DNA of 64,000 nucleotides from Armatimonadota bacterium (GCA_025062195.1 JANXAS010000001.1:64872-128871); one strand, 5' to 3'. Positions 15,951 through 63,251 are shown, counted from the first letter of the stretch. Program-made: numbers and translations. Notes: a model not told the origin generated them from the sequence alone.

Positions 15951-18900
15951 CTACTGTGCAACAATTGTAAATGCCTCACGAAGCACACCGTGTGGGCTTT
16001 CAATACCATCAGCAACATTTATCACGACGACATCCCATTTGCCAGTTGCGGCACCAGTTAGGTTGAAAACTGCCCTAATTCTCGTTTGGCTCTCCACAGT
16101 GACACTGCTCGCCACAATATCTTGCTGTCCGGATCGGCGCAAGAGAACTCTTGCTCCACTCCAGAAATTACTCCCACTTATTGTGACAGTTACTGGATTC
16201 TTTGCCCCTAAGTTAGAACCCTGATTAGGGGTTATCGCTGTCACAACCGCTTGCGCTTTGATGACGAAACCATCCACCAGATCGCCATATCTGCTATCAG
16301 CATTTACGGCTCTTACCGTCCATTTCCCTGGCACTCTACCAACCAAACTAAATGTGCAAGTTGCTTCCGCAGGACTGAGCACATTCACACTTGTCCCACT
16401 AATTTCAGCTTGTCCGCTCTTTATCAGTCTTGTAACCATACCCGGGTAGAAATTACTTCCGACAAGCTTCACCGTTACCGATGTTGAATTTAACCCCTCT
16501 GACGGTGTTATGGAACTAATTCTCGGCGCCGGTGCATAAACCATAAAGGCATTTCCAAGGACAGCAGATGAGCTGTGTGGGTTTGTCATAACAAGTGAAC
16601 GCCAACCGGGTGAAACACCACGAAGGTCAAATTGGCATGTTAACTGTGTATTGGTAATATTTGCTTGCACATTCATTCCAACTATATCAGGTTGACCGCT
16701 GCGCCTCAAAATTACAGATGCACCACTCCAAAGGTTGCTCCCTGTGATGATAACGCTTATAACAGCATTGTTTTCGCTGGAGTTTGGCGTCATACCTGTC
16801 AAAGTTGCAGGTGCAGTTACAGTGAACGCTTCAGTCCTCCTACCCTCCTGCCCATCCGTGTTCACTACAACAACATCCCATTTGCCCGGTTGCCTGCCGT
16901 TAAGGTTGAACTGGCATGTTATTGTCGTCTTAGATGACACAACCAAGTTAGCCCCTTCAATGCTTGCTGTGCCAAGCCTCAAAAATGCCCTTGCACCGCT
17001 GAATAAGTTGTTTCCAGTGATTGTGACGGAAACTACACCGGTATTTTGTGCCGTATATGGCGTTATTCCGCTAACAGTTGGTGCTGGCGCTGTGATTCTG
17101 AATGCGTTGTCCATTTTGCCCTCCCTGCCATCGGGGTTACGGACAACGACATTCCAATCGCCGGGTGCTCTATCACGCAGGTCAAACTGGCATGTAAGTC
17201 TTGTTGAGCCAACAAAGGTGACATTTGCACCAATTATGTCGGCTTGACCAACCTTTGTCAGGCGAACTGTCGCGCCTCTTAGGAACATTGAACCGTTAAT
17301 TGTGACTGTTGCAGTGCCAGTGTTAGGTGCTGAAGACGGCGAAAGACTCGTAATTTGCGGTGCACCTTGCTGCTCAATCACGAAGCCACCAGGCAACTTT
17401 CCTGATTGCCCATCCAGATTTACAACTACAACATCCCAATTGCCCGGCTCTGCATCATGCACATTCAACGTCGCTGTGACTTGAGTTGCACTCGCCACAT
17501 TCACATTCGTTGCAGTGATGACTTTCTTGCTTGTCCCGCCATCCTTTTCAATCCTCACGACAGCACCACCAAAGAAATTGCTACCGATAATCGTAACATC
17601 CACCGTTCCATAGTTAGTCACACGGCTCGGAGAAATGGAGCTTACAGTCGGTGGATTTACGGATTTGACCAGAAAGGCATTTGACAGGGTTACTGACTTA
17701 CCATCACAGTTAATGACAACCACATTCCATCGTCCAATTGCAGCATTTGTGAGGTTAACATTGCACACAATCCTGTCGCCATGCATGTCATTATTCCTGT
17801 CAGACACAACAATATTGGTTGCAATTATATCCGGTTGACCTGTGCGGATAAATCTAACTGTCGGGCTATAGAAGTAATTGCCATCAATTGTGATTGTCTT
17901 GATGCCATCATTCGTTGCTTCACTTGGCGATATTGATGAGATTATCGGTGACATCGCTGTTACCGTGAATGCCCTTTGCCTCACAGCTTCATCACTGCTG
18001 TCATTCTGAACGACCACATCCCATGCGCCCGGAAGCTTACCACGAATGTCAAATGTGCAGACTATCCTGGTCTGGTCAGCAACTGTGACATTTTCACCAA
18101 CAATCTCATCGCCTGAGGAATGGCGCAGCTTTACAACTGCGCCTGCCCAGAAGTTAGCCCCAGCAATCGTCACATTCACTTTTGCCGTATTTTGAGCAGA
18201 TGATGGTGTAACCCCAGTTATCACTGCAAGTGCCTTCACGGTGAAATCATCATTTGCTGTGTCATCGTTTTGCCATCCATTGGCATTGATCACGACCAAA
18301 TTCCATTTGCCCGGTGCTTTACCTTTGAGGTCAAATACACATTGCAATTCCTCGTTCCCATTTGCGACATTCCCATCCTTATCAGTCATGCTGAGAATGG
18401 TTCCGACTATATCAGCCTGCCCGGACTTAACGAGTTTCACTGTCGCATTCGGGTAAAAGTTGTAACCAGTTACTGTCACCGTAACGGAGCGATTATTATC
18501 ACCATTATTTGGAGAAATAGTGCTTATAACTGGCTTGACATTCGGAATCTCAAATACCTTAAATCCACCCTGCAATGTTGCAATTTGCCCGTCAGCATTC
18601 CTCACGATAACATCCCAATCGCCAATGCTCACATTTCTAAGGTCAAATCTTGCCCAAACTTGCTTATCACTAAGCAGCGTTGTGCTCGTGCCAACTATTC
18701 TCTCATTTCCTTTGCGCATTTCAACAGAAATTCCCGCATAGAAGTTGGCGCCATCAACAGTCACACCTATAACTGAGCCTTTCAGGGCTTGGTTCGGCTT
18801 AACTTGGATTATTTGTGGCATTTTACCCTTCACAAGGAATGCATCGGCAAGCATCCCAGACTGCCCATCGGCATTCGTCACAACGATACTCCATCGTCCA

Positions 18901-21900
18901 AGCGCTGCGCCAGCCAGGTCAAATGTGCACCTAATCTCAGTATTGCTTATGACCTGCACATTGTTAGCTGCAATTGGCGTCTGACCAGTTTTCCGAAGAG
19001 CGGCTGAAGCACCTGCAAACAAGTTATCCCCAGTTACTGTAACCGTAACCGTTGAATCTCTTTCACCTTCGGACGGATTGATGCCCGTCAAAGTTGGCTG
19101 AGCAGCAGTAATTGTAAGCGCATCTGGCTTAATTACCTCAGGGCTCATTGGTGGCTCATCGTTAGGCACATTTTGGACAACAACTGACCACCTGCCGGGC
19201 GCCGCAGATTGCTTACCATTTGCCGGATTATTGTCAATATCCTCAAGATTAAATGTGCAAGTCAGTTGCGTTGTGCTGATCACATTGACACTTGTTGCAA
19301 CTATGTCCCTATAACCAGTTCGGCGTAGGCTAACTTTTATGCCACTCCAGAAGTTGCTACCAACAATTGTCATCGCAAAGGAGGCATTCGTGTTGATGGC
19401 TGTAGTCGGAGAAACAGAAGTTATGGTCGCCGGAGCAGTTACCGTGAATGCTTTAGAAACTATCACACTTCTGCCATCAGTATTTATCACCACGAGGTCA
19501 TACCTTCCCGGCTCCTTACCAATCAATGGTAAAGTGCATGTCAATTTCGTCCCATCTTGCGTCCATTTTACATTCTGTGCCACAATTTCACTTGCTCCCT
19601 TCACCAATTTCACAGACGCACCCTCATACAGGAAGCGACCTGTAATTGTTACATCCACGTTGCTAATATTTGCGCCAATATTTGGCTCTATGCTCACAAC
19701 CTCCGGATAATCTGGGCTATAGACCCCATTAATTGTGAAGGTATATGGGTCGCTCTCCGGACTTAATGGATTTATGACGATAAGATGCCAATTTCCTGGC
19801 GCTCTGCCCCTCAAATCAAACTGGCATACGATTTCACTACCCTTATTCTCACCGCCAACGAAGCGTTCCTCAACCTGCGGCGGAGCAACCGGCAGTATGT
19901 CGCTAAAACCTGCCCTCTTTAGCCTGCAAGTTGCTCCCTTCCATATGTTATCCCCAACGATTGTCACTTTCAGGCTTGCTTCTCTGTTTTCTGCTGTGCT
20001 TGGCTCAACTTGTCCGATAATTGCTTTTGCTTGTATTGAGAATGCTTCCCTAAGAGAGGCAACCTGTGTTGGTGTATTCTCAACCTCAACATCCATCTTC
20101 ATTGGTCGCCTGTTCCTTATATCAAAACTGCATTCAATCCTGTCCCTCGCAACTGAGTTGACCACACCGTCAATCACAGTCCCATTACCCTTAAGCCTCA
20201 CTTTGGCATATGGCAACGGCATAAAGTCATAACCTTCAATTGCCATGATTACAACGGTATTATTCAATGCACCAGTTGGAGTCACCTTGCTTACTGTGGG
20301 CTTAGCAGTCACTATGAACCTGACATCATCACTGCTCTCAACAGACCTGCCATCTCTCAAACCGAATACCACAACTTTCCACTCACCAGGACTACGCTTT
20401 ATTAGGTTAAATCGGCAATAAATCGTCCTTGAATCGCTAACAGTGACATTTGTTGCACGAATCTCTGTGTCGGTTCCAGATACTCTCACCGGCACAAGCT
20501 TAGCTGAGTCAGTTGGCATAAAGTTATTTCCAGTGATTTTGACATCAATTGTGGAGTCATTTGGCGAAGAATTTGGCTCAATCCTTGAAACGCTTGGATC
20601 GCCGGTCAAAGTTATGGTAAAGGTTGCTGGGTCGCTTGACGGGCTTGAAACATTCGTGACGATAAGTTGCCAATCCCCAACTGTCTTTTGCCTCAAATCA
20701 AATTCACATGTTATCAAAGTTCCACTGCTTGATACGCTCACATTCCTTCCCACAATGTCTGTTTCACCGGCTTTACGCAACCTTATATCGCAACCACTCC
20801 AGAAGTTACTCCCGGTTATAGTCACCCTAATAATGTCAGAATTTGGTGCACTCTGTGGATCTACCTTCGTGATTCGCGCTTTAGCTTGGACTGTGAAAGC
20901 ATTTGATATAACAACTTCGGGGCTTTCCGGATTCTTGACGACCAAGTTCCAGTATCCCGGAGCTGCCCCTGTGATATCCAATTGGCATGTTATTTGTGTT
21001 GTATTTATTGCTCGCTCACCAGTTGCCAATATGTCATTGTAGCCAGTCCGCCTCAACCTGACATCCAAACCGCCTGATTCATCGCCCCAGAAATTGGTGC
21101 CGTGAATCGTCAAAGTAAACGGATTACTTGTTTTTTCATTCAACATTGACGATGGACTTATAGCTGTCACAAATGCTCTTGCTGTCACTATAAACTTGCC
21201 CACACCTGAACTGCCGCTGTCTCCAATGCCGTTTGTTGGATTTCCATCGTCATCGGCTGCTGCAACAAAGACATCCCACCTACCAGCCGGCATATCTTTC
21301 ACAGCAAATGTTGCAGCAATTTGGTCTGAGCGGATAATTCTGACATTGCTAACTGGCATCTGGTAAAGCGTGTTACCAACTTGTTTCCTCACATAGACTG
21401 TGCACCCTGGGAAGAAATTACTACCTTGAATAACCACATTGACATTTTCTGACATGTTGGATGCCTCAGATGGAACGACACTTGCAATCACCGGATTTGG
21501 CGCAGTTATCTTGAAAATCCTTAAACCTACGCCTTCTACTCCATCTGGGTTAGTTACTACGACATCCCAATCACCTGGTGCTTTTCCAATGAGGTCAAAA
21601 TCCGCCGCCATCTGTGTTGCTGATGTCACCACTACATTTGTCCCAACAATTTCAGCAAAGCCAACACGCCTAAGGCGAACTGCCGCACCAGTGGCAAAAT
21701 TATTTCCATTTATTACGAGCCTTCTAACGGCATCATTCATGGTAGAACTTGGGCTAACGCTTATCACAACTGGTGCAGGTCCTGTAACCATGAACGCATC
21801 TTTCAAAGTAACTTCGGGCGACTCTGGGTTGGCAACGACAACACTCCACTTGCCCAATTGCGCATTTGTCGCATTAATAAGACAAGTTATCATGCCACCA

Positions 21901-24900
21901 TCAGGTGAAGCCTGCTCACTGGTCGCTTCAATATCGGCATATCCAGTTCGTCTCAGGAGCACTTTCAATCCGTTTGCCTCACTACCCCAGAAGTTTGAGC
22001 CATAAATCCTCAGTGTAAAAGGATTATCTGAGGGCAGATTTGAATTGCTCGTTGGGTCAATCCTGACTATGCTCGCCAGCGCAGAAATGTAGAACAAGCT
22101 CCCAGGATTTGGACCATCTTCATCACTCAAATTATCCCCATCCTCATTGCCAGCGCCCTCATAGTCAAAATCAATTGTCCTATCACCATCTTGGTCAATA
22201 TTTGATTTTCCGTCAGTATTTTCAACCACAACACGCCAGCTTCCGGGCTCAAGCCTGGTTAAGTCAAATGTCCCCACAAGGCTTGTCTGGCTCGTAACAT
22301 TGACGCCTGTGGCATACCGCTCAACCAAACCGCTTGTGAAAGTATTCCTGAGCAACTTCAGTTTCGCTCCAGCAAAGAAGTTTTGTCCTTTGACAAGAAA
22401 TGTGACAGATGTGCTTGAGTTTGCACCCTTGTTAGGGGAGACAGATATGACAATCGGCGGATCTGCAATTATCTCAAGGTCTTCTGGCCCGCCTCTACCC
22501 CCAACTTGAATATCGCTTGGTGGTCCGCCAACATTTGACAAAACTGCGTCCCAAATTCCAGGTGATTTGCCAAGTGTTGGGAGAGTGCAAGTTAGCGTTG
22601 TATAACCGCCAGGGACATCAGGTGGACTCGGATATTGAACCTTGCCACTTAACTTAATATTTGAGCCAACAATGTCAGGGAAACCTTGACGCACAAATTT
22701 GACACTAATCCCCGGCCAGAAGTTCTTACCCTCAATTGTTATAGTGGCATTACTCTTATTGGAAACTGACGATGGTGAAACCCCACTAATAATTGGCTTT
22801 GCAAGCACATTTATTGCCCTTTGCAGTATCCCATATTGACCATCATCGTTAACCACTTCAACATCCCAAGCACCCGGTGTCTTGCCCCAGAAATTGGCTT
22901 GAACCCTGACAAGTGCCCTATTTGTTAAAAGCTCGCTTTTGTTCAAAATCCTCCAACTCTCCCATGGTATGGTCACAACATCATCTTGGGATGCTGGGTC
23001 TTCGCCGGGATTGTATGTCCCATTGCGCTTGAATTTCACGGTCAACCCGGGCATGAAATTGTCGCCATAAATGTAGATAACGCCAGTCTCACCATCTTGG
23101 CTTGGTGGACCATTCCAAACAGATTGTGCTGGGTTGTTATCTTTCGTGTTTACATAGTAGACTACCCTTGTGACAACGGGTGGAGGCGAAATTACCCTGA
23201 CTGCATTCGGCAAAATTTCCCATTTGTTGTCAGTATTCCTGATGATTATGCTCCAATATCCGGGCTCAGCCCTCTTACCAGTCCCACAGGGGTTTGAAAG
23301 CGGTGGAAAAGTGCAGGTTATTATCCTGCCTTGCCAGACCGGTTTTTCAGTTGTGCGTATATTTGTTGGATCATCCGGTTGACCAACTTTTGTAAGTTGC
23401 ACTTCTACCCCCGGAGCGAACATGTGTGGGTCAAGTGAGAATGATGGCGAGCCAATTCTTCCGTAAATCTTCATTTGCCACTCCTGAACGCCAGTGTTCA
23501 CTACCGTTGATGGCTCAACACCAACTGGATTCGGATAGTCAAGAAAGATGGAAAATATAGGATTTGTTGACAGAAGGCGGACACCCGGATCATCCCTTGG
23601 GTCACCACCACTGCCATCAATGAACAAAACTTGCTTTGCCCAAGGATGTGAGGCATAAACATGATGATTGCCGGGAGAAGAATTCAAAGCCGGGTCATCT
23701 GGCGAACCGAACAATATAAAACGGCATTCATTTTCGTTTACTACACCGGGCAAGCCAGAAGCATCCCTAACTGTGGTCTCAAACAACGAAGTGTGTGAAT
23801 AGAAAATGTCAGGCACTCCATCATCCTGGGTCTCTGTATATCCTGGGGCAATTTGCCTCCAAATCCTCAAATATAATCCAACACTGGGTTGTGCTGTTCT
23901 AATGGTATTCCTGGTAACATAGGTGCTGTGAAAGTCATCGCCAACTACTACAACACCCAAGCCACGAGCATGATGCCTATCAACATCCTTATACCAAGCC
24001 CATCTTGATCTTTGCGCAGGTGGTGTAGTTGCGCCGGGGCGAGATGGCGGAGTATACATGTCAGTCACGCGAGGCGTATAGTAATAAAGCTCAAACAAAG
24101 CATCTGCCACTTCCGACCTTCCACCAGCGCCTGGCTTTTCAACCGTAAGGTAATAACTGCCAGCATAAGCATTATCATCGTCAAGCGAGAATGCTGCATC
24201 AATAATCCTATTATCCGGGCTAATTCTCACATCTTGTGCGGAAATTATGACTCTGGAGCCACCCCTTGGATTATCAGGCGAACCTCGCGCCGATTGCAAG
24301 CGGACACTTGTCACACCGCTAAAGTTGGCATTACCGAGTATCCGTATGACGATTTTATTCTGATCATCGGAGCTTCCAGGCTCGCCACCCGTGAATGCCT
24401 GCCTGTCCCGATCAGCATGAGGTGAGTTATTTGGTATTCCTCCGGGAAAATTGGTATCGTTCCAACAATCAACTATAGTCATCGGTGATGTGACCGTAAA
24501 TGCCGATCCGAGCCGTCCGACTATATTAGTCCCCCAAAAATCAGTTGCAACAATGACATCATATAATCCGGGACGGGCATTCGCCAAGAAAAGGTTAAAC
24601 TGAGCACGAATCCGAGATGTTGGGAGAACTGTGGCTGGAGTGAGTGAGCGAATTTGGTATCTTGTGTCTCTTGCATCTCGCAAAAATACCCAATATGTTG
24701 TGCCACTATCAAAATTTGCCCCATCTACTGTGAGATAGAATGGATTGTCAGTTTCAAGATTACTTCTTGACGATGGGCTAACCGATGTCAAATGGACTCC
24801 ACCAGCATCGCTAATCGTGAATGTTGTTGAGGCGAATCGTCCTGTCGGAATCGGGTAATCCGTGTTATATACCCGCAATGTCCAACTGCCAGGACGCAGC

Positions 24901-26453
24901 CCACGAAGGTCAAAGGTTATATCAACACTTTTTGTTATTCTGTCTCTATCATCCCTTGGATAACTTACACTGGACGGGTAAACAATTTGCCCAAAGCCTC
25001 TCAACTCGGCATAGACGCCTTCAAACATATTAGAGCCATCAACACGGATTGCGACAGGGGCATTATTACTCCCACTTGATGGGCTTATGCTGCTTATTGA
25101 TATTGGGTCTGAAGTGACCGTAAATGCGTTATAAAGCGTTACAGTTACACCTGCAACAGTAACTTCAACATCCCAATAACCAGGCGGTGCCGGATCATCT
25201 GGGTCACGACTCCAAGGGTCTACAAGATTAAAAGTAGCTCTCATCCGTTGCGTTGGGTTATCTGGGTCAAGTGATACACTCGTTGCACTTATAGTTTGAG
25301 CAAATGGGGGTAAAGATGGCGATATTGGTGGGGATTTTCGCAGACGGACACTTGGAGGAGGTTCCGATAAAAACCCAGTCCCACTAATCGTTATAGTTAC
25401 TGTGCTTCTATTTGAGCCACTAACTGGCTCAATTCCTGTCACTGACACTCCAGTTGTAGGCACTAACTCAACAACACGCAATCCACCAGTGTTTTGACCT
25501 GGCTGTGCCGGTGGCTCAGGCCAGACTACATATTGCCCATCATTGTTTCGCACAACGACATAATACCAACCCGCAGCAACACCAATCAATGGCAACTCAA
25601 CAAGCAAACTAATACCTGCCGGATCTTCATCAACTTCCCCATCACCATCATCGTCAACCCCGTTAATTGGGTCTTCATCAATACCCTCATCACCATCGTT
25701 GTCAACATCAACTTTCGTGGTAATGTTAGTCACAGGATTAGTCCAATCCTCATCCCAATCTTCATCAATTTGCCCATCGCCATCATCATCAATTCCTTCC
25801 CAATCTTCGTCAATTTCATTGTCATAATCATCATCCCGCCCGTTTACCCGATCTTCGTTAAAAAGACCGTCACCGTCCTCGTCTTCCGGCGGGTCTTCAT
25901 CAACTCCATCTCTATCGTCGTTATAGCTTCTGACACTAATTGCGCGCGCAACCATAGTGCCAGGTTGCCCATCCAAGTTGATATAAACTTCGGCGTTGGG
26001 GAAGAGATTTTCACCCCTTATAATGAACTTTACAACTCCTTCCGCATTGCTTCCCCAATTTATGCTCATATCCTGCGGCGGATTGTATGGTTTTCCATCT
26101 TCACGCTCAATTGATGTTATTTTCGGCGCACCCGACTTTATGATGAATGCATTGGTCAAATATGCCCTCCCCGATAGTGTTACGAGTTCCAAATCATAAA
26201 TGCCAGGCGCACCCCCAAGTAAATTAAATTCTGCCTCAACTTTGTCACCTGACTCTGAAAGGACTGTGCCATCAATGTTGGTTCCGCCAATCGCTTTGCT
26301 AACGAGAGTAATACTTTGCGTATTTTCAAGGTTCATACCATTTATGATGACTTTTAGCGCACTTTCTGTGTTGCTCCCCCAATTTATCCTCATGTCATGT
26401 GGTGGATTAATTGGTCGTTTATCCTCACGGACAATTGAAGTCAGCCTTGGCAA
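15951..26453 (-). repeat. Array of about 32 IPT/TIG domain repeats
   Basis: Counting openings of the type (I/V)xxIxPSSxxN followed by a GxNFxxG turn gives about 32 units. The C-terminal dozen are most alike and most regular in length (about 90-95 residues). The N-terminal units are longer and more diverged, as expected if the array grows near its C-terminal end. The repeats are alike at protein level, with synonymous drift in the DNA, so this is an old expansion. Confidence 0.85.
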
Positions 26454-26582: not shown

Positions 26583-26832
26583 TAAAAACACCCCCCCAAC
26601 TTTTTGTGGTGCATCTCTCTGATGCCCCAATGTCTATTTTAACAACGCACCAAACTTTTCGCCCCTTGAAAAGTGCATCTCTTAATGCGCCATAACCTTT
26701 TCCACTACAGAATTCTCACCATTCGTGGTGAGCCACCAAACAAAGAAGTGGAGTAGCAATTACCCATCTTTTCGGGCGGATTTCATCCGCTCCCACTTCA
26801 ACAACTGCGTAACTCCTAATCTAATTCCTAAT
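26583..26832. other. Intercistronic region between the two giant genes, with two hairpins
   Basis: The 250 bases between the stop of the Big_1 giant and the start of the TIG giant contain two stem-loops. CTCACCA-TTCG-TGGTGAG at 26715-26732 is a perfect seven-base-pair stem with a tetraloop. GGGCGGAT..ATCCGCTCCC at 26774-26794 is a nearly perfect hairpin with one bulge. Neither has a U-tract. They could be processing or stability elements that set the ratio of the two giant proteins, or a partial terminator. Confidence 0.5.
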
Positions 26833-44800: not shown

Positions 44801-45490
44801 TAGACTGCGGTCGCTTCACCGTTTCCATCTGTCTTAACTTGCACCTGTGGAACCTTCTTATCACCCTGCAAGAACCAGCCGTTGGCATCGCTCCCGCCAC
44901 TGCCGACAGGTCCTGCCGTTATTGAGAGCGTAACATACTGTTCCCTCATAAGCTCGGCAAAGGCATCCCTTACAACAACACTTATATCCGACTGCGTTAT
45001 CCCATCGGCTGTCAGTATTTGCGGGACTGCGCTCATCGTTATACTCGTTGGCTTAGGCGCAACAAGCGTCATAATGAGGCTCTTTGTGAGCTTTGGCTCC
45101 TCAACAACGGTTGCAACAATGCGCGCCACTTTATCCTGATCAAGCTCTGGCGCAACATAAATTACTCTGGCAATCCCTTGGGTGTCGGTCTTGGCTACAA
45201 GTTCGCTCTTAAGTTGCAGTGCACCTACTTGCCTGCTGCGTCCCGTGCCCTGTCCCGGTGTGAGTGGCTGCCTGAGCGGCAAGCTGCCAAGGGGTATAAG
45301 TGGCGTTATCTGCGCTGCAAGTTCAGGAGTGTATTCAACAAAGCCACCCATGTTTGTCGGATCAACTGTGAACTTGACATCAACACCGCCAACCGGCTGC
45401 CCATCCCTGTCAAGGACCTTTGCCATTATTAGTGCCATTGATCTGCCATTTGCAGACATTGCCGGGTCTACAACAGGCTCTGGAAGCTCA
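26833..45490 (-). repeat. Array of about 58 Big_1 (invasin-like) domain repeats
   Basis: I counted about 58 units by their opening ...A.P..I.ADG.S...I.A.V.DA.GNPV motif, mean spacing close to 107 residues. Variants that replace ADG with YVSGVG or VHGVG (at least four units) form a sub-family scattered through the array. A higher-order tandem of three-unit blocks is embedded at about 38820-41580. The final unit (residues about 6,850-6,942) is diverged and may be a capping domain. Confidence 0.85.
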
Positions 45491-47661: not shown

Positions 47662-47798
47662 TACCCTTACCCCCTATTGATCGCGAAGATGCTTACCAAC
47701 ATGGACGATGATTGCGCTTATGTTGTTTGCAAAACTCGCTTTATGCATTACCCACACCACAACGGCATGTAAACACTGCATCCATCACATTGCACGAA

Positions 47799-50441
47799 TC
47801 ATCGCATTCTAAACACAGCCGATGCAAATGCTGTCTGGGAATCCTCCGTCACCGGTTGGACGGTTACAATGTATGCACCGTTTGGCACCCGTTTGCCATT
47901 GTCGTCCTTGCCATCCCAAAGCATTGTAACTTGACCGCGCTTAACAACACCGCTGCTGCCCAGCTCCCTTACGACTCTGCCAGTAAGCGTCCTTATGGCA
48001 CAATAAATGCGCGCATCCTTTGAGAGCACGAACGATATCGCCATCTTGCCGCCACGAACCGGCACAACGCTAAGTTGCATAACTTTCAGCGGAGCATAAT
48101 TGCTCTCTTCAATCACCACTTTGAACCGCCGCAATCCACCAATTGCACCACTTTGATATCTGTAGTTTGATGCGGTGCGCATGTTGATGACCCTCTGTGC
48201 ATCAACATCAACGAGCATCACCTTGGCATTCTTCGGGATGTCAACCCCTTCCCACTGCAGCACCACATCTTTGTTAGGCAACTCGCAATTCACAACGAAG
48301 TCCCAAACCTTCCTTCCACCACCTGCTGCCTTTATATCGTAGCAAAGCTCTGTTGGTGTTTCTCCTCTTCTTCCCCCAGCAAACGCAAGCTTAACCGACG
48401 GCGATGGGCGAGGTGGCTCAAAGACATCAAAATCATCAAGCCCATCGGATGCGCCATTAGCAACGCCAAGCAAATTATGCGAATCGCACTCATCGCCAAC
48501 CGTTACACTTATGCGCATTTTCCAGCGCAGGTTGTCATAGTTGGCTTGCATCTTGCTGCGCTTGCGCACTTGAAACGAGCCTATGAATTGCGGTTCATTG
48601 AACAGAAGGACCACATCACGCTTTGCATACACCCAAAATGCTTGCCATGGTGGAAGAAGCACATCGTTGCCAGACTTAGGCTGGGCATAGTCCTTAGCCA
48701 GATTGTCCCAGAAGAAAATGAAGCTGTGAATGTAGCCCTCAACGGAGGCGTCCTCATAGCTGAGTGCCAGCGGGCTTCCCGGAACAGCAAATTGCAACCC
48801 ACCAAGGTAGGCAGGTTGCGGGAATGGGTTGCCAACCTGATTCCAGCCGGCGTATAGCGGGACTGCTACCGGCATCTCCGTGTCTTTAAGGAAACGAGCA
48901 CCGTTGAGCACTATCTTCGTTGGCGTCTCCAAGTAAATCCAATAGCCTTCACCTGGGCGAAGCTCCCTTATGTCGTATGGGAAGAAGCGATACTTATTAG
49001 AGCGCGGATCCCAACGGGCAAGCTTGAGTGTTCCAGAGAGCCCCAAGGCAGTTGGTGGGTAACGATCCCCAACTGGATATGGTAGACATAGCATGTGAAA
49101 GCCGCCCATGAAAAAGCGCTGTGCCTGCGCAGGGATAACAAACTTGATTGGCAGATTATGCACCTTTCCCGGAAAGGCAATGCCAACGATGTTGATGGTT
49201 GTATAGCCTTCAACCCAATTCTCAACACTAACATCCCATGAGACCCTCGCCTCACTGCCAGCTGGGACATTGCCAATTGATTGTGTTGGCGCAGTGCCCT
49301 GCAACAAACTCATCCCTGGCGGGAGCTGAAGTATGAGCGTTGTTTCAGTTAATGGTGCATCGCTGTAATTGAGCACTGTCACATCAATTGTGAATGGGCT
49401 TGGCATCGGAAAAGACGTCTCAACCTCCGCCGTTAGCGGATTGTCCCCAAAGACGGTATTCAACCTTGGCGGCATGTTAACGAAGATACCGTAAGAGCCT
49501 CCGATGGAAACCGCTGTTGATATATTCAATCCGACATAGGTGACAAATTCAACCTTTGCTCCGGGCGTGAGCGTGAATGGAAGCCAATAGTAAGCTACAG
49601 CGCTATCTTGAAACTCAAGGTTGTAGAACTCACTGACTGTGAAGTCCCAGTTGTCTGCAGTTAGGTGGCCAGCTTCGCCAAACACGAGCCTATCAGGCGG
49701 TGTTGCATCGCCACCTTTAACGATACCCTTGAGGCTAAATGCAGTCTGTGTCCTTGAGAGTGTCGTCAGCCAGACTTCGGGCATACCTATACCAGCGTTG
49801 AACTCTCTCTCCCTAACTATCGGCGGCACACCTGAAACATAAAACGGTCCCGAACTCAACTTAGGATCAAGCCGCGGATTTAGGAATAGGCGAACACCGA
49901 TTGTGTGCCCGACATTGTCAATGTTGATTATGCGGTGCCGTATCTCAACGAACTCACGGATCAAAGTGACAATGCGCTCAATTATCAAGTCATCCGGATT
50001 GGTGTCATAATCGGGGTCTGTCCCAGCAGGCTCCGGCATCTCAACAACCCAGAAGCATCTGACGGAATTTTGGGAGACCATCATCGGTGTCCCGCGCAGC
50101 TCCCACCTTACAGGGTCTGCGCGGCGCTGCCCAAGAGATGCAGCCGTCCCGTTGGCGCGTATCAATGCGCTATAAATTCTATCAGCGTCATCCTCAACGC
50201 GCAGAGTCATTGAGCCTGTGAATATATCAAGCTTTGGCGGGATATATGGATCAACAACGATTGTGGTCACCGTAACATCGCCATTTGCAGCCATCGTCAC
50301 GCTCAGGTAATTGTTTGCTACGGTCACTTGAGCCTCAGCCATGCCGAAGCCGATGAGCAACAAAATGGAGGGCAAAAAATTCCGCCAACATTTGCCTTCC
50401 AAGAACACTCTCGGTATCCACTTAACCATGCATTGTCTCAT
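47799..50441 (-). CDS. Secreted beta-rich protein with shared C-terminal sorting-like region
   Basis: A protein of 880 residues. The signal peptide has core FLPSILLLIGFGM with likely cleavage after AEA. Residues 40-330 are a beta-rich domain I do not recognise. Residues about 335-435 look like a CARDB/DUF11-type Ig domain (ILQLPPGMSLLQG...). From about residue 442 it carries the region shared with the proteins at 50456-53797 and 55824-58157: GFHMLCLPYP, then a GWNQVGNPFPQ block, WVYAKRDVVLL, NLLGVANGASDGLDDFDV, and a final FlgD-like Ig domain with TLTGRVVREL, WDGKDDNGKRVPNGAYIVTV and the end FRMR. The ATG at 50441 follows GGAGGG by seven bases and sits 15 bases past the upstream stop. It has no catalytic motif. 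Confidence 0.85.
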   Translation of the reverse strand: MRQCMVKWIPRVFLEGKCWRNFLPSILLLIGFGMAEAQVTVANNYLSVTMAANGDVTVTTIVVDPYIPPKLDIFTGSMTLRVEDDADRIYSALIRANGTAASLGQRRADPVRWELRGTPMMVSQNSVRCFWVVEMPEPAGTDPDYDTNPDDLIIERIVTLIREFVEIRHRIINIDNVGHTIGVRLFLNPRLDPKLSSGPFYVSGVPPIVREREFNAGIGMPEVWLTTLSRTQTAFSLKGIVKGGDATPPDRLVFGEAGHLTADNWDFTVSEFYNLEFQDSAVAYYWLPFTLTPGAKVEFVTYVGLNISTAVSIGGSYGIFVNMPPRLNTVFGDNPLTAEVETSFPMPSPFTIDVTVLNYSDAPLTETTLILQLPPGMSLLQGTAPTQSIGNVPAGSEARVSWDVSVENWVEGYTTINIVGIAFPGKVHNLPIKFVIPAQAQRFFMGGFHMLCLPYPVGDRYPPTALGLSGTLKLARWDPRSNKYRFFPYDIRELRPGEGYWIYLETPTKIVLNGARFLKDTEMPVAVPLYAGWNQVGNPFPQPAYLGGLQFAVPGSPLALSYEDASVEGYIHSFIFFWDNLAKDYAQPKSGNDVLLPPWQAFWVYAKRDVVLLFNEPQFIGSFQVRKRSKMQANYDNLRWKMRISVTVGDECDSHNLLGVANGASDGLDDFDVFEPPRPSPSVKLAFAGGRRGETPTELCYDIKAAGGGRKVWDFVVNCELPNKDVVLQWEGVDIPKNAKVMLVDVDAQRVINMRTASNYRYQSGAIGGLRRFKVVIEESNYAPLKVMQLSVVPVRGGKMAISFVLSKDARIYCAIRTLTGRVVRELGSSGVVKRGQVTMLWDGKDDNGKRVPNGAYIVTVQPVTEDSQTAFASAVFRMR

Positions 50442-50455
50442 GGTGCTTCCCTCCA

Positions 50456-53400
50456 TCATCGCAAGCGTATCAAGCCGACACCTTGAAAGGAGGTCTTTGT
50501 TTCATCATCGCTTGCGACAACCTTGCAGATGAAAACTGACGATGCGACCTTCTGACCATTGCTATCCCTTGCATCCCAACGGACATAGTTCAAGCCGGCC
50601 CTCGCACCGCTCAAGTTCAGCTTGCGAATAACTCTACCTGCAAGCGTAAGTATAGACACCTCACACCTTGCCTCTTTCGTCAATTCAAACCTTATAAGCA
50701 CATCTCCGCCCCTTGTTGGCACAGCGCTAATGCTGCTCACACGCAGCCCAGATGATGAAGCTCTCTCAGCAACAATTCGCACCTTCGTGCTACCAGACGA
50801 ACTAAGAGCTATATCGCATGCGCTGACTGCGCGCATGTTCAACGGCGAATTGCGCGACGGCTCGTATAGCCACAGCCTCCAGCCGCTTGGGATGCTACCA
50901 ATGCCATCCCACCTCAGCCTCACAGTTCTACAACTGCTAAGGGGCTGCAAATCCACATCCCAAACAATCCTACCCGAAGCTGCCGGGCGGCAATCAACCA
51001 AGAGCGGCAGCTTCTTAGCCTCGTTAACTTCATCCGTAGGGATGAGACTGATTCGCATCTTTGCTCCGGGAGGCGCCGGCGGAGCCGGCATATCTCGCCC
51101 AAACTCAACACCGACATTGGCATCAGCATCCACTGCAAGCACAACATTTTGTGGCACCGCATCACCAGCCGGCGTTTCGGAGATCAATCTCAAGCGCCAT
51201 CCGCCATCGTGCCTTGAGGGACGCTTCCCGCCACCCTGGCGATTCGCGTCACCTGCACGAGAGCGCATCGCTATTGAGGGCAAGATGACAAGCCTGCACG
51301 GCTTAAACTTCCTGACCCAGTAACCCTCAAACGGTTCAAGCACAATCTCGGGCGGTGTCATCGCAACATATTGCTGCCCATCCCATCGGTAAAGGATTGG
51401 TAAGATGTAGCCGCGCTCTGCAGCATCATTGAAGTTGAGCAGCTGCGATGTGTCGTCCGCCAACACCTGTATCGCATTCAAGTCAATGGCGAATGGGAAT
51501 GGGTTGCCAATCTGCTGCCAACCAATGTCAGCCTCCCTTATGGCATCCCAAGACTTTTCATTTCGCATGATGAATGGCTGCTGCCTATCAATTGTGTGCC
51601 CCTCAATTTGTAAAGGTGTTGGAAGAGCTACCCTCACCCAATAGCTTCTGCCCGCAACAAGCGTGCTCACAAACTCGTCATAGTAGCCCTCCTCATAGTA
51701 ATGGTAGTCGTAGTCGCCAACATCACCTGCAATGTATGGCGGTCTGGCTGTCGGCTTCAAACCGTAACGAGCCAACCGCCTGTTTATCGTGGCGCCGAAG
51801 ACATAAGATGGCGAATCACGCCCACTAATCAACTCATATGGGATTGAAACCATTTGCAAGCCGGTGCTTAGCACCTTTGGGACGACAGTGAATGTGACAC
51901 TTTTTGGCTCAGCCTGAACTCCACCGTAATTTGCGGCTCGTATTTCAAGCGTGTGTGAACCTTGCTGCAAAGGTTGCGTGAGCTTAAGTTCAAGCGATTG
52001 TGTTGTTGGGTCAAATTCAGTTGTTGCGCCCCTGAGAACCTCTTGCCCATCAATGGTTACAACTATGGATGATGGGTCAATGTTGGTCTTGCCCTGATAC
52101 GGTGATGGGTATGGTCCGGCAAATCTCGCCCTTATTATCGGTGTGAATGTGAAAAGTATTTCGCCTTCCTTTGGCTCAACTATGTAAATTTCGGGCTTGG
52201 TCAGAACGCTCACTCTGGCATATATTGAAGTTCCAATCATGCGTATCTCGGTTATGGAGACGCCAGAATCAAGCCCAAAGTATGTGGCGCTTGACGGCTT
52301 GCTCAAGAATGTGAACTCAGTATTGTTGGTCAAGCCAGGATAAGGGTCGCCGGCATCACCGTGGTTGCCCTGTAGCCATCCAAGGAAGCCATAGGTGGAA
52401 CAGTTGAATGCGAGCGGGTCAAAGTCAACCTGTGAAAGGTCAATATCATCACGCCCGTCAGCTTGAACCATGTGAACGCCCTTCCTCATGTAATCAATCA
52501 GACCAGTTAGCGGGTTGATGTTGACTTGAATTTCGTTTTGGAGATATTTGGTGTAGTCACCAGTTATAGTTTTGTCAATGTGCCAAATGGTTAACCCAGC
52601 ACCGGGAAGGTATTGGTCAAAGCCCATCAGCTGGCGGTTGCAAAGCAGGAAATATTCATTTTGCGCTGTGCTCCCAAACGCCCACACGCGATAAACAACT
52701 GGCTTTATTTCATACGGTGGTATTTCAACGACGCCGGCATCACCGACAACATCAATTGGCGTTATCCAACGAAATAGCATCTTGCTCCACGGGTCATGTT
52801 CACCGGGAAGACCAATTGGGCGCAATGGGTTATACTCTGCTGGAACAAATCTATCACCAGCACACATTAGCGCCCAAAGCCCGGGGCTGACCGCCTTCGG
52901 CGTTATAGCATCATATAAGTCAACCAACCCAAACGCATGCCCCATCTCATGCGCATAAGTCCCAACATCAGCAGTGGCTTCATGGATGAGTATGAACGAC
53001 TCAACAGTCACATTATCCCTTGTCTGAAACGGTTGCGATGGGGTGCCCATCAATCTTTCCCATACAATGCTTCTGTGGAATGCGCCAAACGATGGGTCAT
53101 CATTGAAGTTGCCGTCAGGGCAGCGAGCATCTTCGTCGCATGCAAAAGTTACGAACAGCAGATCAACTCGCCCATCCTTATCACTGTCATAGCGCGAGAA
53201 GTCAACGAACGGGTCAACGACCCTTATTGTCTCTTGGATGATAACATCGCCGCCGATAGCAGCATCGGGCATGAATGTTACATTCCCAACAGTATCAGTT
53301 GGCACATCAATGACAATCCAACCGTATGTGTCACCTGTGATGGTGAGCTTGCCATAGGAGGATTCGTAATAGAAACGGGCAAGAGATGATGGATTAGCCA

Positions 53401-53797
53401 TGTCAAAGAGCAGCCTGTTAAAGTGAGCCACCGTATGCTCCTCTGCGGGGACAACATCATAAGAGCGCGGTCTGACAAGCAAGTGCAAAGCCCTAATAGT
53501 TCCTATAAGTCCACCTCGTGGCAATAAGCCTGTGCCGAGCGTCCCGAAAAAAGCATAATGGACATCAAGTGCCTGACGAACTCTTTCACCACGCTGCTTT
53601 GGCTTAGCGCTCAACGGCGAAAGTTCAATCCCATAGCGCTTCGCGACAGCCTCCAATATTTGCCTCTTCAAACAGCGTATGCCCGACATTCGTCTCACTT
53701 TTATTTGCTGCCCTGATGCCACATTCAAACCAATAAGCGATAATAGCAGCCCTATAGCAAAAACCCTACACACCCATTTGACTCCCAAGTGTTTCAT
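50456..53797 (-). CDS. Secreted M6-family metalloprotease with shared C-terminal region
   Basis: A protein of 1,113 residues with a signal peptide (VFAIGLLLSLIGLNVASG). The catalytic domain is of the immune inhibitor A (M6) kind. Its zinc motif HEMGHAFGLVD at residues 283-293 provides HExxH plus the third ligand of HExxHxxGxxD. Upstream, YDSDKDGRVDLLFVTF is the conserved M6 strand with a calcium-type DxDxDG loop. After the protease come a beta region and an Ig-like domain (EIYIVEPKEGEI). The C-terminal region from about residue 645 (LQMVSIPYE, WQQIGNPFPFAIDL, TLAGRVIRKL, end IRLR) is shared with two neighbours. The ATG at 53797 is preceded by GGTGAT. It probably matures or sheds surface proteins of this locus (inference). 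Confidence 0.9.
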   Translation of the reverse strand: MKHLGVKWVCRVFAIGLLLSLIGLNVASGQQIKVRRMSGIRCLKRQILEAVAKRYGIELSPLSAKPKQRGERVRQALDVHYAFFGTLGTGLLPRGGLIGTIRALHLLVRPRSYDVVPAEEHTVAHFNRLLFDMANPSSLARFYYESSYGKLTITGDTYGWIVIDVPTDTVGNVTFMPDAAIGGDVIIQETIRVVDPFVDFSRYDSDKDGRVDLLFVTFACDEDARCPDGNFNDDPSFGAFHRSIVWERLMGTPSQPFQTRDNVTVESFILIHEATADVGTYAHEMGHAFGLVDLYDAITPKAVSPGLWALMCAGDRFVPAEYNPLRPIGLPGEHDPWSKMLFRWITPIDVVGDAGVVEIPPYEIKPVVYRVWAFGSTAQNEYFLLCNRQLMGFDQYLPGAGLTIWHIDKTITGDYTKYLQNEIQVNINPLTGLIDYMRKGVHMVQADGRDDIDLSQVDFDPLAFNCSTYGFLGWLQGNHGDAGDPYPGLTNNTEFTFLSKPSSATYFGLDSGVSITEIRMIGTSIYARVSVLTKPEIYIVEPKEGEILFTFTPIIRARFAGPYPSPYQGKTNIDPSSIVVTIDGQEVLRGATTEFDPTTQSLELKLTQPLQQGSHTLEIRAANYGGVQAEPKSVTFTVVPKVLSTGLQMVSIPYELISGRDSPSYVFGATINRRLARYGLKPTARPPYIAGDVGDYDYHYYEEGYYDEFVSTLVAGRSYWVRVALPTPLQIEGHTIDRQQPFIMRNEKSWDAIREADIGWQQIGNPFPFAIDLNAIQVLADDTSQLLNFNDAAERGYILPILYRWDGQQYVAMTPPEIVLEPFEGYWVRKFKPCRLVILPSIAMRSRAGDANRQGGGKRPSRHDGGWRLRLISETPAGDAVPQNVVLAVDADANVGVEFGRDMPAPPAPPGAKMRISLIPTDEVNEAKKLPLLVDCRPAASGRIVWDVDLQPLSSCRTVRLRWDGIGSIPSGWRLWLYEPSRNSPLNMRAVSACDIALSSSGSTKVRIVAERASSSGLRVSSISAVPTRGGDVLIRFELTKEARCEVSILTLAGRVIRKLNLSGARAGLNYVRWDARDSNGQKVASSVFICKVVASDDETKTSFQGVGLIRLR

Positions 53798-53900
53798 CTG
53801 ATCACCACTCTCCGTTATGCTCAATCAACTCTTTTCTTTTCTTTGAACACTCGCACCAACTTCGGACATGACAGCCTCAACCTTACAACCTTGGCAGTTC

Positions 53901-55823
53901 TCACCTTCCACCCTTAGGAGGTGTTGGTGGCGCCTCAGCAGTCCTGAATGCATGCACAACACTCCAAACCCACCCATCTGGGTATGGCGGTGCCATGTCA
54001 CGGCTGTTTCTGTATCCAACTCGCCAATAAAATGTCGTTGCACCTGTGACCCTGAAGAACTGATTCAGTTCGTTCACCAAGCGTATTTCAATTGGCACTC
54101 CATCCTTATCCTGCGTGAACCTTGTCTGCTTCATGAAAGCCTTCCCCGGAAGCAAGTTCGCTGGGTCTGTCCCAACAAAGATAGCATACTCATCAGCGCC
54201 CCTGACGCTCAAAAAGCGAAATGTCACATCAGCCAAGTTGATGTTATCGCTTCCCGGTTGTCCTAAGTTCGGTGGCGAAACAAGGTCTGTATCGGACATC
54301 TTCCTTAAAGCTGTCGCAGGACCAATGATTGATGAGAATTGGCTCAGAACAATCTCCCACGCCACACCTCCTCCGCCAGCACCGCCGCCAACGCCGGTTA
54401 TAACCGACATTGCTGGACGGCGGGCAGTTATCCTGCGGATGATATACCAATACTGGCGACCGAGCTCAAGCGGCGTATGATAAAACTCCTCATCGTAATC
54501 GCTGACCACAACCTGCCTTGAGCGGTTAACCTTTAGCCTCTTGGCTCTCCCCGGAACTTCAACCTGCCTGTCAAGCCATGGCGTCCTATCTGGGTCGTCC
54601 ACATCTTCGGCAGTCGCCTCACCCTCAAAATACTGTGTTGTGTCAATATATTGGGTGACATTTCCGGGGATTATGTCAATCATCGTGGCATTGGATGGAG
54701 AAAAGCCAGCTGTATCACCGCGATAAATTTCAACCCCAAGGACTGTCCCACCACCGCTCCCAAAGCGAACTATGATACCATCACCCCATGAGAGAGAGTG
54801 AGCCGAAAGAACAGCTGGAGGTCTCTCAGGCTTCCTGCTCTGCCCGATGACTGCAACGAGTGCACCCAACGCAAGCAGCGGGAATATGATACCCTGCACC
54901 CAAGATGTGATTGTTGGACGCTCACGCCTTATCGGCGGCATTGCCACTTTCCCAACCGGCGGCATCATGAACTGTGCCCTAACTTTGTCCATCTGTTGAA
55001 TTCCCTGTGTCTCCCAATCAATATCGGCATGCGACTGACGCTGTTCAACGCGTTTGACAACGATCTCGCCGATCTTCCTTGTCTCGCCCGTCTTCAAATC
55101 TGTATGTATGACGCTCATCCTCATTCCGGCAGTGACAGCGTCCTTCGCACCGATGTTGAGCAGCACCCTATTTTCCGGGAGCCTAATCAAAACCTGCCCG
55201 GTCGGAAGCCTCGTTGCACGCATGTTCTCTTCAGCGCGCCTTGCAGCCCTATTTAGCGCATCGGCAAGCAACCTCGTATCCTCAATACCTTCCGGGCTTC
55301 GTTCCATGACATTTGCACCGTTGACTGGCTCGCCAGCTTCAACATCATAAACAAACACTTGTATGTGAACGATGCCGACCTTAGGACGGCTTGTGACAGT
55401 TGCCGATACAACTTTGCCGGTAGCCACATACTGCGCGTTCAAATACGCACCTACGCGCTGTATGTCAGCGATGCTCGGTGATGGCGGGATCTTGAGTTCG
55501 CTCAACGCATCTTGCACCTGTTGGCGCGGCACAACCTCCCATTGAGGTTCCTCCGGGAGCATAATTGCATATGCAAGCGCATCCGCAGCAGCCCTGCCAA
55601 GCCAAGCTGGCACATTGCGCTCAATATCAAAGTCAAGAATAGCTATACGAGGCTTTGCCCGTCCGACTTCCACTGCGCCAACTTGCCCCGCAGCCGGTTG
55701 CTGTGGAGCCTCGGAACTCGTCGGCTCGCTGACGACCCCGATGAGCGTTAGTGACAGAGCCACAATCAGCAGCCATGCGACGCGCCTAATTGAGCGACAA
55801 CGCTTAAGTGCCATCATAGCCAT
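53901..55823 (-). CDS. CsgG/FlgT-like exported protein with second membrane segment and FnIII-like domains
   Basis: A 640-residue protein. Residues 13-31 are a signal peptide or anchor. Residues 57-200 are a CsgG/TolB-N-like domain (PRIAILDFDIERN, VEAGEPVNGANV). Residues 208-285 resemble the FlgT C-terminal beta-barrel (VLLNIGAKDAVTAGMRMSVI, KIGEIVVKRV). Residues 305-327 are a clear hydrophobic segment, and two fibronectin-like domains follow (about 335-470 and 520-628). A Gly-rich linker sits between them (GVGGGAGGGG). CsgG is the outer-membrane secretion channel for curli and FlgT belongs to the flagellar outer ring. Here neither membership is proven, but the layout suggests an envelope-associated platform. 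The same head design occurs at the N-terminus of the 6,942-aa giant. The ATG at 55823 directly abuts the upstream TGA. Confidence 0.82.
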   Translation of the reverse strand: MAMMALKRCRSIRRVAWLLIVALSLTLIGVVSEPTSSEAPQQPAAGQVGAVEVGRAKPRIAILDFDIERNVPAWLGRAAADALAYAIMLPEEPQWEVVPRQQVQDALSELKIPPSPSIADIQRVGAYLNAQYVATGKVVSATVTSRPKVGIVHIQVFVYDVEAGEPVNGANVMERSPEGIEDTRLLADALNRAARRAEENMRATRLPTGQVLIRLPENRVLLNIGAKDAVTAGMRMSVIHTDLKTGETRKIGEIVVKRVEQRQSHADIDWETQGIQQMDKVRAQFMMPPVGKVAMPPIRRERPTITSWVQGIIFPLLALGALVAVIGQSRKPERPPAVLSAHSLSWGDGIIVRFGSGGGTVLGVEIYRGDTAGFSPSNATMIDIIPGNVTQYIDTTQYFEGEATAEDVDDPDRTPWLDRQVEVPGRAKRLKVNRSRQVVVSDYDEEFYHTPLELGRQYWYIIRRITARRPAMSVITGVGGGAGGGGVAWEIVLSQFSSIIGPATALRKMSDTDLVSPPNLGQPGSDNINLADVTFRFLSVRGADEYAIFVGTDPANLLPGKAFMKQTRFTQDKDGVPIEIRLVNELNQFFRVTGATTFYWRVGYRNSRDMAPPYPDGWVWSVVHAFRTAEAPPTPPKGGR

Positions 55824-58157
55824 TCACCTCGCTCCTCCTGCTACATTGATCCTAACTGCCGCATTTACAGATGCCCTACTCTCAACGCCGGAGGCTTCAA
55901 CATTCGCTACATAAAAACCATCGGGAAGATTATCCGGCAGCCTCACCGAAAGGATATTCCCACCGCGCCCGTAAACCTTTGACGGTTCAATTCGCATGAT
56001 GAGTCTTCCAGTGAGCGTCAGCAAGCTCAACCTTAGTTTAGCTGGCTGCGTCAATGTAAAGCTGAGCACTAATGCCCCACCACGGCTCGGCAGCTGGCGC
56101 AAGTTCAAGATGCGCAGCGGTGAGTGTGCGCCGTGCAAGAGTTTTAAATTGAGGTAGCGTCTTTCACCCGCCCCTATAGAAAAACTATACGGGCGTTGTG
56201 TAAATGGATCAATGGTAACGCCCCTTTCATTATCAATCAAGGTCGCCCTCACATCCTTAAGGGGCTTATTCAACGGCTCAAGAGATAATGTCACAACGCC
56301 GCCTTCATTGCCCTCAATTAGAATGAGAAAGTTTTGTGCCCGTGAACTGTTAGAGCGCAGGTCAACTGCGCATTTCATTTCTCCGTTTTCAGTCCGCTGG
56401 ATAAGTGACAGGTTGAAGCACCGCAAACCGAAGGGCTTTGGCGGTTCGGGAATGTCAAGCACATCAAACCCGTCGCTGGCATTATTTGCGACACCTACGA
56501 AATTGTCGCTGTCAACCGACGCGCCACACATCGCCCTCAACCTTAAAAGAAACGAATCAACAGCGTGCACCTTAAGCAATTTAAGGGCTTCATCTTGAGA
56601 TGTATGGCGAGACATACGCACCGGCTGATTATCCACAAGCAACTCAACTGGCTGAAGCGCATAAACCCAATAAGCTTTGTATGGCTCAAGCGTTGTCGCA
56701 ATTTGGTAATAACCTGCAACGGTTTCAGCACCACCCCACTCCTCACGGAGCGTGAAAATAGCCGTGCTGATAAACGCCCTCGCCTTTAAATCCGTTATTG
56801 GGATTGCCTCAAGTCCAGCTGGCTTAATGTATGAGCGCAACCAATCAACTGCGAATGTAAATGGAGCGCCTATCAAGTTCCAACCGACCTCAAGCTTGAT
56901 CGGGAAGCGATAAACAGACGGCGTTGGCGAGCCTTCACGGGTGAAGTCCAAATATGTGTTGGTTAAAAGGAAATAGCCTCGCCCAATTTGAAATGCGTAT
57001 GCTGGCGAGGCAACATTTGTTGGGTCAAAATATGCATACTCACCGCCAAGCGGTTTTTTCGGATCTGTGATCCATGTTGCGAGCTTGAGCTTGCTCAATT
57101 CAAATACCTGTGCGGCACTCAACCCGTCCTTCGTGTAGTCATAAGGGAGCGACATCATATGCAAACCGGGCTTGAAACTTTTGAAAGCGCTCACAGCGAA
57201 GTTTATCCCTTTAGTTTCACGCCCAGAAATGACACTCACATTTCGTTTCTCAACGGATGAGTAGCCGGTGGTGGCAACTCGCACATTATAAATCCCAGCA
57301 GCAACAGTGATGCGGTAATTGAAGCGATAGCCATTCTCCTCCTCATATTCTGGTGCCGTAATAGCGAACGCCACAACCCTGCCAGCCGAATCCACAACCT
57401 CAATCCTCACGCCGCCGACAACCGAGCCATCAATCAACCTCGTCACTAAGCCGGAGATTGAACCCAACGGCAGCGCGATCAATCTGAAGTTGACGCCGGT
57501 GATGATTCCACCTGCAGGGACTGTTACAACCCTTGACTGACTCGCATATCCTGCAGCACTAACCCTCACTTCAACCTCACCGGCAGGCACATTCGTCAGC
57601 GTGTAAACGCCGCTTGATGCCGTCCTCGCCGACGATACCACCACTCCAGCATAAAGCGCCTCAACGAGAGCATTGTCAATGGGCAAACTGTCCGCATCGC
57701 GCACGACTACACCCTCAATTATGCCCGGCTGAGGCATCAAGATGATGTCAACTGTCACCGTGGCGGCTGGATCTACACGCACATTTGGCTTTGTGACCGG
57801 TTGATAGCCTGTGGCACTTGCGGTCAGGTTATATAGCCCGGGTGGTAAGTCGGATATTCGGTATGCGCCGGTTGCATCAGTTGTTGTGGACTTAGTCACG
57901 GGCTGTTCGCCAGGGTATGGAGCAACCGGTATGGCAGTGACTGTGGCATTTGGGACGCCGGTTCTCCCATCGGATTGATATACGCGCCCAACAATTGACC
58001 CAGGAGTTTGCTGAGCCTGCTGCGCAATGGAGAGATTGATCGCAAGGAACGCTATGCATAGTGCAGCACCTGTAACTCCATCCCCAAAAGAAGCAAAAAG
58101 GCGCTTTGGATGCATCCGCAGCACCCCCAAAATGGCACAGCAATTCTCCATCCCCAT
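55824..58157 (-). CDS. Secreted protein with three carboxypeptidase-regulatory-like domains and shared C-terminal region
   Basis: A 777-residue protein with a signal peptide (ALCIAFLAINLSIAQQ). Three CarboxypepD-reg/SpaA-like beta domains follow at about 52-142 (GRVYQSDGRTGVPNATVTA), 145-228 (GVVVRDADSLPIDNALVEA) and 232-322 (GLVTRLIDGSVVGGVRIEV). Residues 326-777 form the region common to three proteins of this locus: GLHMMSLPYDY, GWNLIGAPFTFAVDW, YWVYALQPVEL, NFVGVANNASDGFDVLDIPEPP and TLTGRLIMRI in the last domain, ending GGAR. The start at 58157 has GGGGTGG upstream and lies 10 bases after the coaE stop. An ATG at 58115 with GGGGGTG upstream gives a more typical signal peptide. It is the first gene of the surface cluster. 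Confidence 0.88.
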   Translation of the reverse strand: MGMENCCAILGVLRMHPKRLFASFGDGVTGAALCIAFLAINLSIAQQAQQTPGSIVGRVYQSDGRTGVPNATVTAIPVAPYPGEQPVTKSTTTDATGAYRISDLPPGLYNLTASATGYQPVTKPNVRVDPAATVTVDIILMPQPGIIEGVVVRDADSLPIDNALVEALYAGVVVSSARTASSGVYTLTNVPAGEVEVRVSAAGYASQSRVVTVPAGGIITGVNFRLIALPLGSISGLVTRLIDGSVVGGVRIEVVDSAGRVVAFAITAPEYEEENGYRFNYRITVAAGIYNVRVATTGYSSVEKRNVSVISGRETKGINFAVSAFKSFKPGLHMMSLPYDYTKDGLSAAQVFELSKLKLATWITDPKKPLGGEYAYFDPTNVASPAYAFQIGRGYFLLTNTYLDFTREGSPTPSVYRFPIKLEVGWNLIGAPFTFAVDWLRSYIKPAGLEAIPITDLKARAFISTAIFTLREEWGGAETVAGYYQIATTLEPYKAYWVYALQPVELLVDNQPVRMSRHTSQDEALKLLKVHAVDSFLLRLRAMCGASVDSDNFVGVANNASDGFDVLDIPEPPKPFGLRCFNLSLIQRTENGEMKCAVDLRSNSSRAQNFLILIEGNEGGVVTLSLEPLNKPLKDVRATLIDNERGVTIDPFTQRPYSFSIGAGERRYLNLKLLHGAHSPLRILNLRQLPSRGGALVLSFTLTQPAKLRLSLLTLTGRLIMRIEPSKVYGRGGNILSVRLPDNLPDGFYVANVEASGVESRASVNAAVRINVAGGAR

Positions 58158-58803: not shown

Positions 58804-58958
58804 TGATGCACCGCTCCAACACAGCATCAAATAACTTGGAGCAATATCTCAAGTTGGGTGTCGCGCAAATCCCGTCACAGCTGATGGAGTGATTGCATGA
58901 ATATCGCTGTGAGGAGGTGAAGGCAAGCCTCTTGGTGAGTTGAGAACTTCAATATCCA

Positions 58959-60308: not shown

Positions 60309-60449
60309 CTTTAACACCACCTTTGCAAATGACGAAATGACTACCCGCCTGTCATCACAGGCATAAGCGACAATGCTAAGTTCATTGTGACGATGGAAGC
60401 TGCATCCGTCACACGCAAGCTCGTAAGAGCGGCATACATCCTGCGCCTT

Positions 60450-63188: not shown

Positions 63189-63251
63189 CTTGCTCCCTTC
63201 AGCAGCGCCATCACGAGCGGATTGAACCAACAAAAATCACCTCACATCAGT

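Follow-up and report, generated by a model that had tools for sequence, protein, structure and literature searches.

FlgT, which belongs to the H/T ring of the Vibrio flagellum, has wider relatives that include TsaP, LpoB, PelC and CsgG. Inverse autotransporters of the intimin/invasin type begin with an N-terminal LysM domain and a 12-strand barrel, which precede their Big repeats. Giant Big adhesins have also been described, among them SiiE with 53 BIg domains (PMC5466336). Other systems with which the proteins studied here can be compared are curli (type VIII), T9SS with its SprA/Sov translocon and PorU sortase, and LptD with LptA. Here, we describe a group of genes in a 64,000-nucleotide stretch of DNA from an Armatimonadota bacterium (GCA_025062195.1 JANXAS010000001.1:64872-128871; hereafter, the window). 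They represent the form that an undescribed Armatimonadota gene set takes in one lineage; the set is nearly phylum-wide and occupies one fixed chromosomal place.

Results

Layout of the locus

Positions 15951 to 58157 of the window contain six consecutive minus-strand ORFs, as a first-pass annotation of this DNA had reported, and they encode proteins of 777, 640, 1122, 886, 6942 and 3559 aa, named A to F here. All window features given below lie on the minus strand unless only a span is stated. The two giants of that annotation (6,942 and about 3,543 aa) were both recovered; F has 3559 aa when read from a TTG start and 3543 aa from an internal Met at residue 17. The six proteins are predicted to be exported, judging from their N-terminal hydrophobic segments and domain types. 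The annotation had also treated the locus as six genes and nothing else, and this did not hold. The block is attached to polA (60450..63233), a gene for an rpsA-like S1 protein (58959..60320) and coaE (58168..58830), three conserved upstream anchors that were recognized by Pfam and have the same order in relatives. Nor are the six genes the whole locus, since a seventh, universally conserved partner (protein L) is absent from the window.

The intergenic distances were 10 bp between the end of coaE and gene A, 0 bp between A and B, 76 bp between B and C, -4 bp (a 4-bp overlap) between C and D, 137 bp between D and E, and 202 bp between E and F. The distances from coaE to D indicate that A to D form one unit with coaE. 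Scans for promoters and terminators gave results at the level of shuffled sequences. A pilin-like gene (IV_pilin_GFxxxE, window 14588-15352) directly follows F, and pilin-like genes occur near the block in relatives too; a prepilin-peptidase-like gene, judged by eye, lies at window 3989-4861.

Conservation and chromosomal address

We compared the genome of the window (G000) with those of 60 relatives, giving 61 genomes of the phylum Armatimonadota in 29 numbered families (f), and searched for homologues with single proteins first and then with profiles. For synteny, ORFs were predicted and profile-labelled in regions of 29 relatives, to which regions of further families were added. By profile, B was found in 61 of 61 genomes, with weak matches in G003 and G047, and L was likewise found in all 61. 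Ordered adjacency was observed for A-B in 23 of 24 genomes, for B-C in 23 of 23, for C-D in 22 of 23, for D-E in 14 of 14 and for E-L in 15 of 16. Across about 29 families, the order in relatives was polA-rpsA-coaE-A-B-C-D-E-L, sometimes followed by uvrB-uvrC. B and L shared a contig in 31 genomes (18 families), where L was always downstream on the same strand at a distance of 0.65-21 kb, while E was accompanied by L in 28 genomes (16 families), with less than 400 bp between them in 19 of these.

Altered or shortened forms stood at the same address, such as coaE-B-L (f21), coaE-B-C-D-giant-E-L (f18) and B-D-L (f13). Some families (f6, f21 and f29) had only B-L or B-E-L, with no proteins in the block that carry the C-terminal domain (CTD) described below; thus, CTD proteins are not the sole purpose of the block. 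In Chthonomonas calidirosea T49 (G025), the locus reads coaE-A-B-C-D-L within a stretch with a GC content of 53.9%; the published value for this organism is 54.41% (PMC4959169).

The idea of a single system, which the first-pass annotation had proposed and which scattered homologues would have refuted, survived this comparison: the set is kept in order at one chromosomal address across many families. We conclude that the genes very probably form one conserved unit. From the gene order, the ancestral address is read as polA-rpsA-coaE-[block], with uvrB-uvrC after it in several families. Genes for proteins of 650-670 aa after L (f7, f10, f20, f26 and f28) had been candidates for extra parts and were rejected, since they are uvrB and uvrC; uvrB, and often also uvrC, lies downstream of the block in several families.

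Several insertions and unusual forms were seen. In f18, a protein of 2,869-2,884 aa is encoded between D and E (L132:4950-13604; G036:C12), and the copy that was scanned had no Pfam match. An additional gene for 380-440 aa lies between B and C in f10, f20, f26 and f28 (L081:6268-7587; L087, G049), with a clostripain family match in the f10 copy as the sole Pfam match among the four families. Two very long A-type genes (4,087 and 2,394 aa) stand in tandem in G029:C20 (L110, L111).

FlgT-like heads in B and E

Gene B (53901..55823) encodes a signal sequence, domains like the middle and C-terminal domains of FlgT, a hydrophobic helix (54843..54899, residues 309-327) and, after this helix, a C-terminal part with two fn3 domains. 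The AlphaFold model of B had a mean pLDDT of 83. Its best Foldseek match in the PDB was FlgT (3w1e; E 4e-13) over the middle and C-terminal domains, the two by which we recognized the FlgT fold, and PelC, LpoB and CsgG were also matched; sequence profiles matched TsaP and LpoB. The FlgT_C Pfam domain was detected in 3 of 26 B orthologues. The CsgG Pfam domain, at its curated cut-off, was matched by 2 of the 26 and not by B of the window. B had earlier been described as a CsgG/FlgT-like head plus a second membrane segment. A head of the FlgT/LpoB/CsgG kind and a second hydrophobic helix are indeed present, and FlgT-like is the better label, judging by the Foldseek result.

Profile cross-matches identified the head of E (26833..47661) as a divergent paralogue of the B head, a similarity that the first-pass annotation had overlooked. 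Here too the head is followed by a hydrophobic helix (46939..46995, residues 223-241), and then by fn3 domains and a long repeat array (26986..45468, residues 732-6892). Pfam gave more than 50 Big_1/Invasin_D3 matches, and an iterative profile resolved 58 repeats with a median spacing of 104 aa, a mean identity of 31% and a maximum identity of 54%. These identities indicate that the array is old and diversified, and a recent expansion was rejected because no two repeats were more than 54% identical. In many relatives, E has only 225-480 aa (head, helix and short tail), and in others it has 600-1330 aa. Judged from these lengths, the extension of E by a giant repeat region is specific to the lineage.

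Gene F

Gene F (15951..26630) encodes TIG/IPT repeats (TIG by Pfam) with D-rich, calcium-binding-like segments of the DDDGDG type between them. Short D-rich segments of this kind also occur elsewhere in the window genome (G000:C93) and in G002 and G055. F was rejected as a part of the system, since no orthologue was found at the locus and the matches elsewhere were short and mostly within the D-rich segment; by this comparison, F is lineage-specific and outside the conserved set. Because the repeat extension of E is lineage-specific and F has no orthologue at the locus, giant fibres are not a defining feature of the system.

Proteins A, C and D

As had been noted before, three proteins (A, C and D) share a C-terminal region, which covers their final ~470 aa. 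At its end lies a CTD of about 105 aa, which in all listed locus proteins stopped 0-5 residues from the C terminus and whose profile matched FlgD and the C termini of the T9SS proteins PorU (6za2) and PorZ (5m11). It was located by profile at 55842..56129 in A (residues 677-772), at 50474..50767 in C and at 47805..48110 in D. Genome-wide, 27 of 31 genomes had from 1 to 19 CTD matches each, and 4 had 0.

Gene A (55824..58157) encodes three CarboxypepD_reg domains (Pfam) ahead of the shared region. Its orthologues usually have 1600-2400 aa, and 17 of 23 carry an N-terminal PD40 propeller, which is missing from A of the window. Gene C (50456..53824) encodes the M6 metalloprotease that the first-pass annotation had recognized: Pfam placed the M6 domain at residues 134-324, with an intact HEMGH motif at residue 292, together with FlgD_ig. 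The protease in this slot varies among relatives, and the 23 orthologues scanned included 14 subtilisin (S8), 3 M6, 1 papain (C1) and 1 clostripain (C11) enzymes. Enzymes of different fold classes thus fill a slot that is itself retained, and this pattern speaks for proteolysis being a required step. Gene D (47799..50459) had Pfam matches to NEW3 and FlgD_ig, and its model suggests a mutarotase/YidC-like beta supersandwich, the NEW3 domain, two repeated GWN.IGNPF beta modules and the CTD, with weak fold matches whose target-length TM-scores were below 0.5. The N terminus of D had a weak match to a mutarotase/OpgD-like fold.

Protein L

In most relatives, a gene for ~650 aa stands directly after E. 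Its product, L, begins with a Big_1 domain, continues with a region like LptA/LptD and closes with a beta-rich C terminus whose final residue is in most cases F or W; such terminal residues are typical of barrel proteins. The profile of L matched the Ig domains of invasin/intimin, LptD (7omm_A, E 6e-7, positions 153-410) and LptA. We consider that L is probably located in the outer membrane. The L gene of the window genome (G000:C93:44336-46255; locus L124) is on a contig other than that of the block. In G002, a genome with the same order, the genes run E-HEAT-L-pilin, whereas the window has E-F-pilin, with a HEAT protein further on; this difference suggests that F occupies the place of L.

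Discussion

An order that is kept at one address nearly phylum-wide, with a core that is universal in the sampled genomes, implies that the gene set should do something basic in the envelope. Our best explanation, which we put forward tentatively, is that the window carries a conserved Armatimonadota operon, in a form altered in this lineage, whose products make up a surface-assembly apparatus of the outer membrane. What the genes build is probably located on the cell's outer surface, most likely as an outer-membrane platform with surface subunits, and would resemble a barrel-plus-ring assembly device. L would be the outer-membrane barrel, and the FlgT-like domains of B and the head of E would form rings in the periplasm that abut it, as in the case of PelC and PelB; that the two heads form rings on L is, again, a possibility to which we give somewhat less than even weight. 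The helix of B and E may anchor in or cross the outer membrane, leaving the fn3 and Big_1 parts outside. The C-terminal FlgD/PorU-type domain would carry A, C and D to the surface, where the slot-C protease may mature or turn over surface proteins. In the window lineage, E would have gained its 58-repeat stalk, A would have lost its N-terminal half, L would have moved elsewhere and F would have taken the place next to E.

The points that favor this assembly apparatus, drawn from sequences and models, are the fixed order and address, the match between L and LptD, the FlgT fold of B, the strictly terminal CTD and the slot-C proteases. Against it stand the separate contig of L in the window genome, the families whose block has no CTD proteins, and the conserved single helix of B and E, which lies between the FlgT-like head and surface-type domains. 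A helix that follows a cleaved signal normally stops in the inner membrane, and the domains behind it, here fn3 or Big_1, are left in the cytoplasm. The topology is thus puzzling, and an outer-membrane location of the helix is our assumption. The first-pass annotation had seen in the six genes a self-contained surface assembly system with a platform, a protease and fibres. Its platform (B, in every genome) and its protease slot (in most slot-C proteins examined) are retained here, and the giant fibres are not, as F is without an orthologue and E reaches only about 225-1330 aa elsewhere. Protein export to the surface may be the main job of the apparatus, which we hold with limited confidence. 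The complete version of this proposal, an undescribed phylum-wide system for protein export and surface display in which an LptD-like Big_1 barrel and two FlgT-like rings carry CTD proteins and the B/E helix crosses the outer membrane, is doubtful.

The same parts could serve a different cargo. L and the FlgT/PelC-like rings might move an envelope polysaccharide or lipid in the manner of Lpt or Pel, with A, C and D binding or processing the product; the resemblance of L to LptD/LptA, the PelC and LpoB folds matched by the B head, the mutarotase/OpgD-like fold of D and the minimal loci that keep only B-L or B-E-L would all fit. However, the conserved block showed no gene for a glycosyltransferase, a flippase or an Lpt ATPase, and the Big_1 domain on L and the fn3 and Big_1 domains on E suggest protein contacts, which leaves glycan or glycolipid export rather unlikely. 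Transport could also be missing altogether: L and the B and E heads would then tether the outer membrane or else a surface layer, while the large proteins would be adhesins or the layer itself. Repeat-rich subunits, the head fold shared with LpoB and the occurrence of B and L in every sampled genome agree with such a structural complex, but a passive layer would need neither a conserved protease nor a strictly C-terminal sorting-type domain, and we regard it as unlikely. It is highly improbable that these genes are neighbors with no common function, held together only by the polA-rpsA-coaE transcription unit. The tight spacing to coaE and the lineage-specific nature of F and of the length of the E array could be read that way; on the other hand, the order is kept over many families despite a changing other flank, proteases replace one another non-homologously within slot C, and the link between L and E is kept where the distance to coaE changes. 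Returning to the surface-assembly apparatus, its presence in a sequenced isolate, Chthonomonas calidirosea T49, makes the proposal testable.

Comparison with known systems

Among open-licence literature, we found no published description of the locus in titles and abstracts. The domains of B superpose on FlgT; unlike FlgT, B carries a helix and two fn3 domains and lacks a flagellar context. Flagellar membership was rejected because the window genome has no FliF, for which the control genomes, E. coli among them, gave matches. Membership in the curli system was rejected similarly, as a genome-wide search of the window genome for CsgG-family proteins was negative while the E. coli control matched. 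With T9SS, the locus shares an Ig-fold domain that is exactly C-terminal and whose profile matches the C termini of PorU and PorZ, a likeness of fold class only. A C25 protease of the PorU sortase type is absent from the window genome, and the 5 of 21 genomes that have one do not track the locus, so T9SS membership was not accepted; SprA_N was matched in 0 of 61 genomes and in no control genome either. The long Big_1/Invasin_D3 array of E resembles those of intimin/invasin and also of SiiE and other giant Big adhesins. However, E has a Sec-type N terminus and no inverse-autotransporter barrel, and its membership in the intimin/invasin group was rejected because it starts with a B-type head, a helix and fn3 domains. 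L matches the jellyroll and the start of the barrel of LptD, as well as LptA, but it differs in its N-terminal Big_1 domain and its fixed link to B and E, and its family is separate from weaker LptD-like matches in the same genomes. No known system shares the defining set of this apparatus, whose function we propose from its genes. If it exports proteins, T9SS and curli would be joined by another route across the outer membrane; if it exports glycolipid, it would be a case of an LptD paralogue that is dedicated to this task and has rings as partners.
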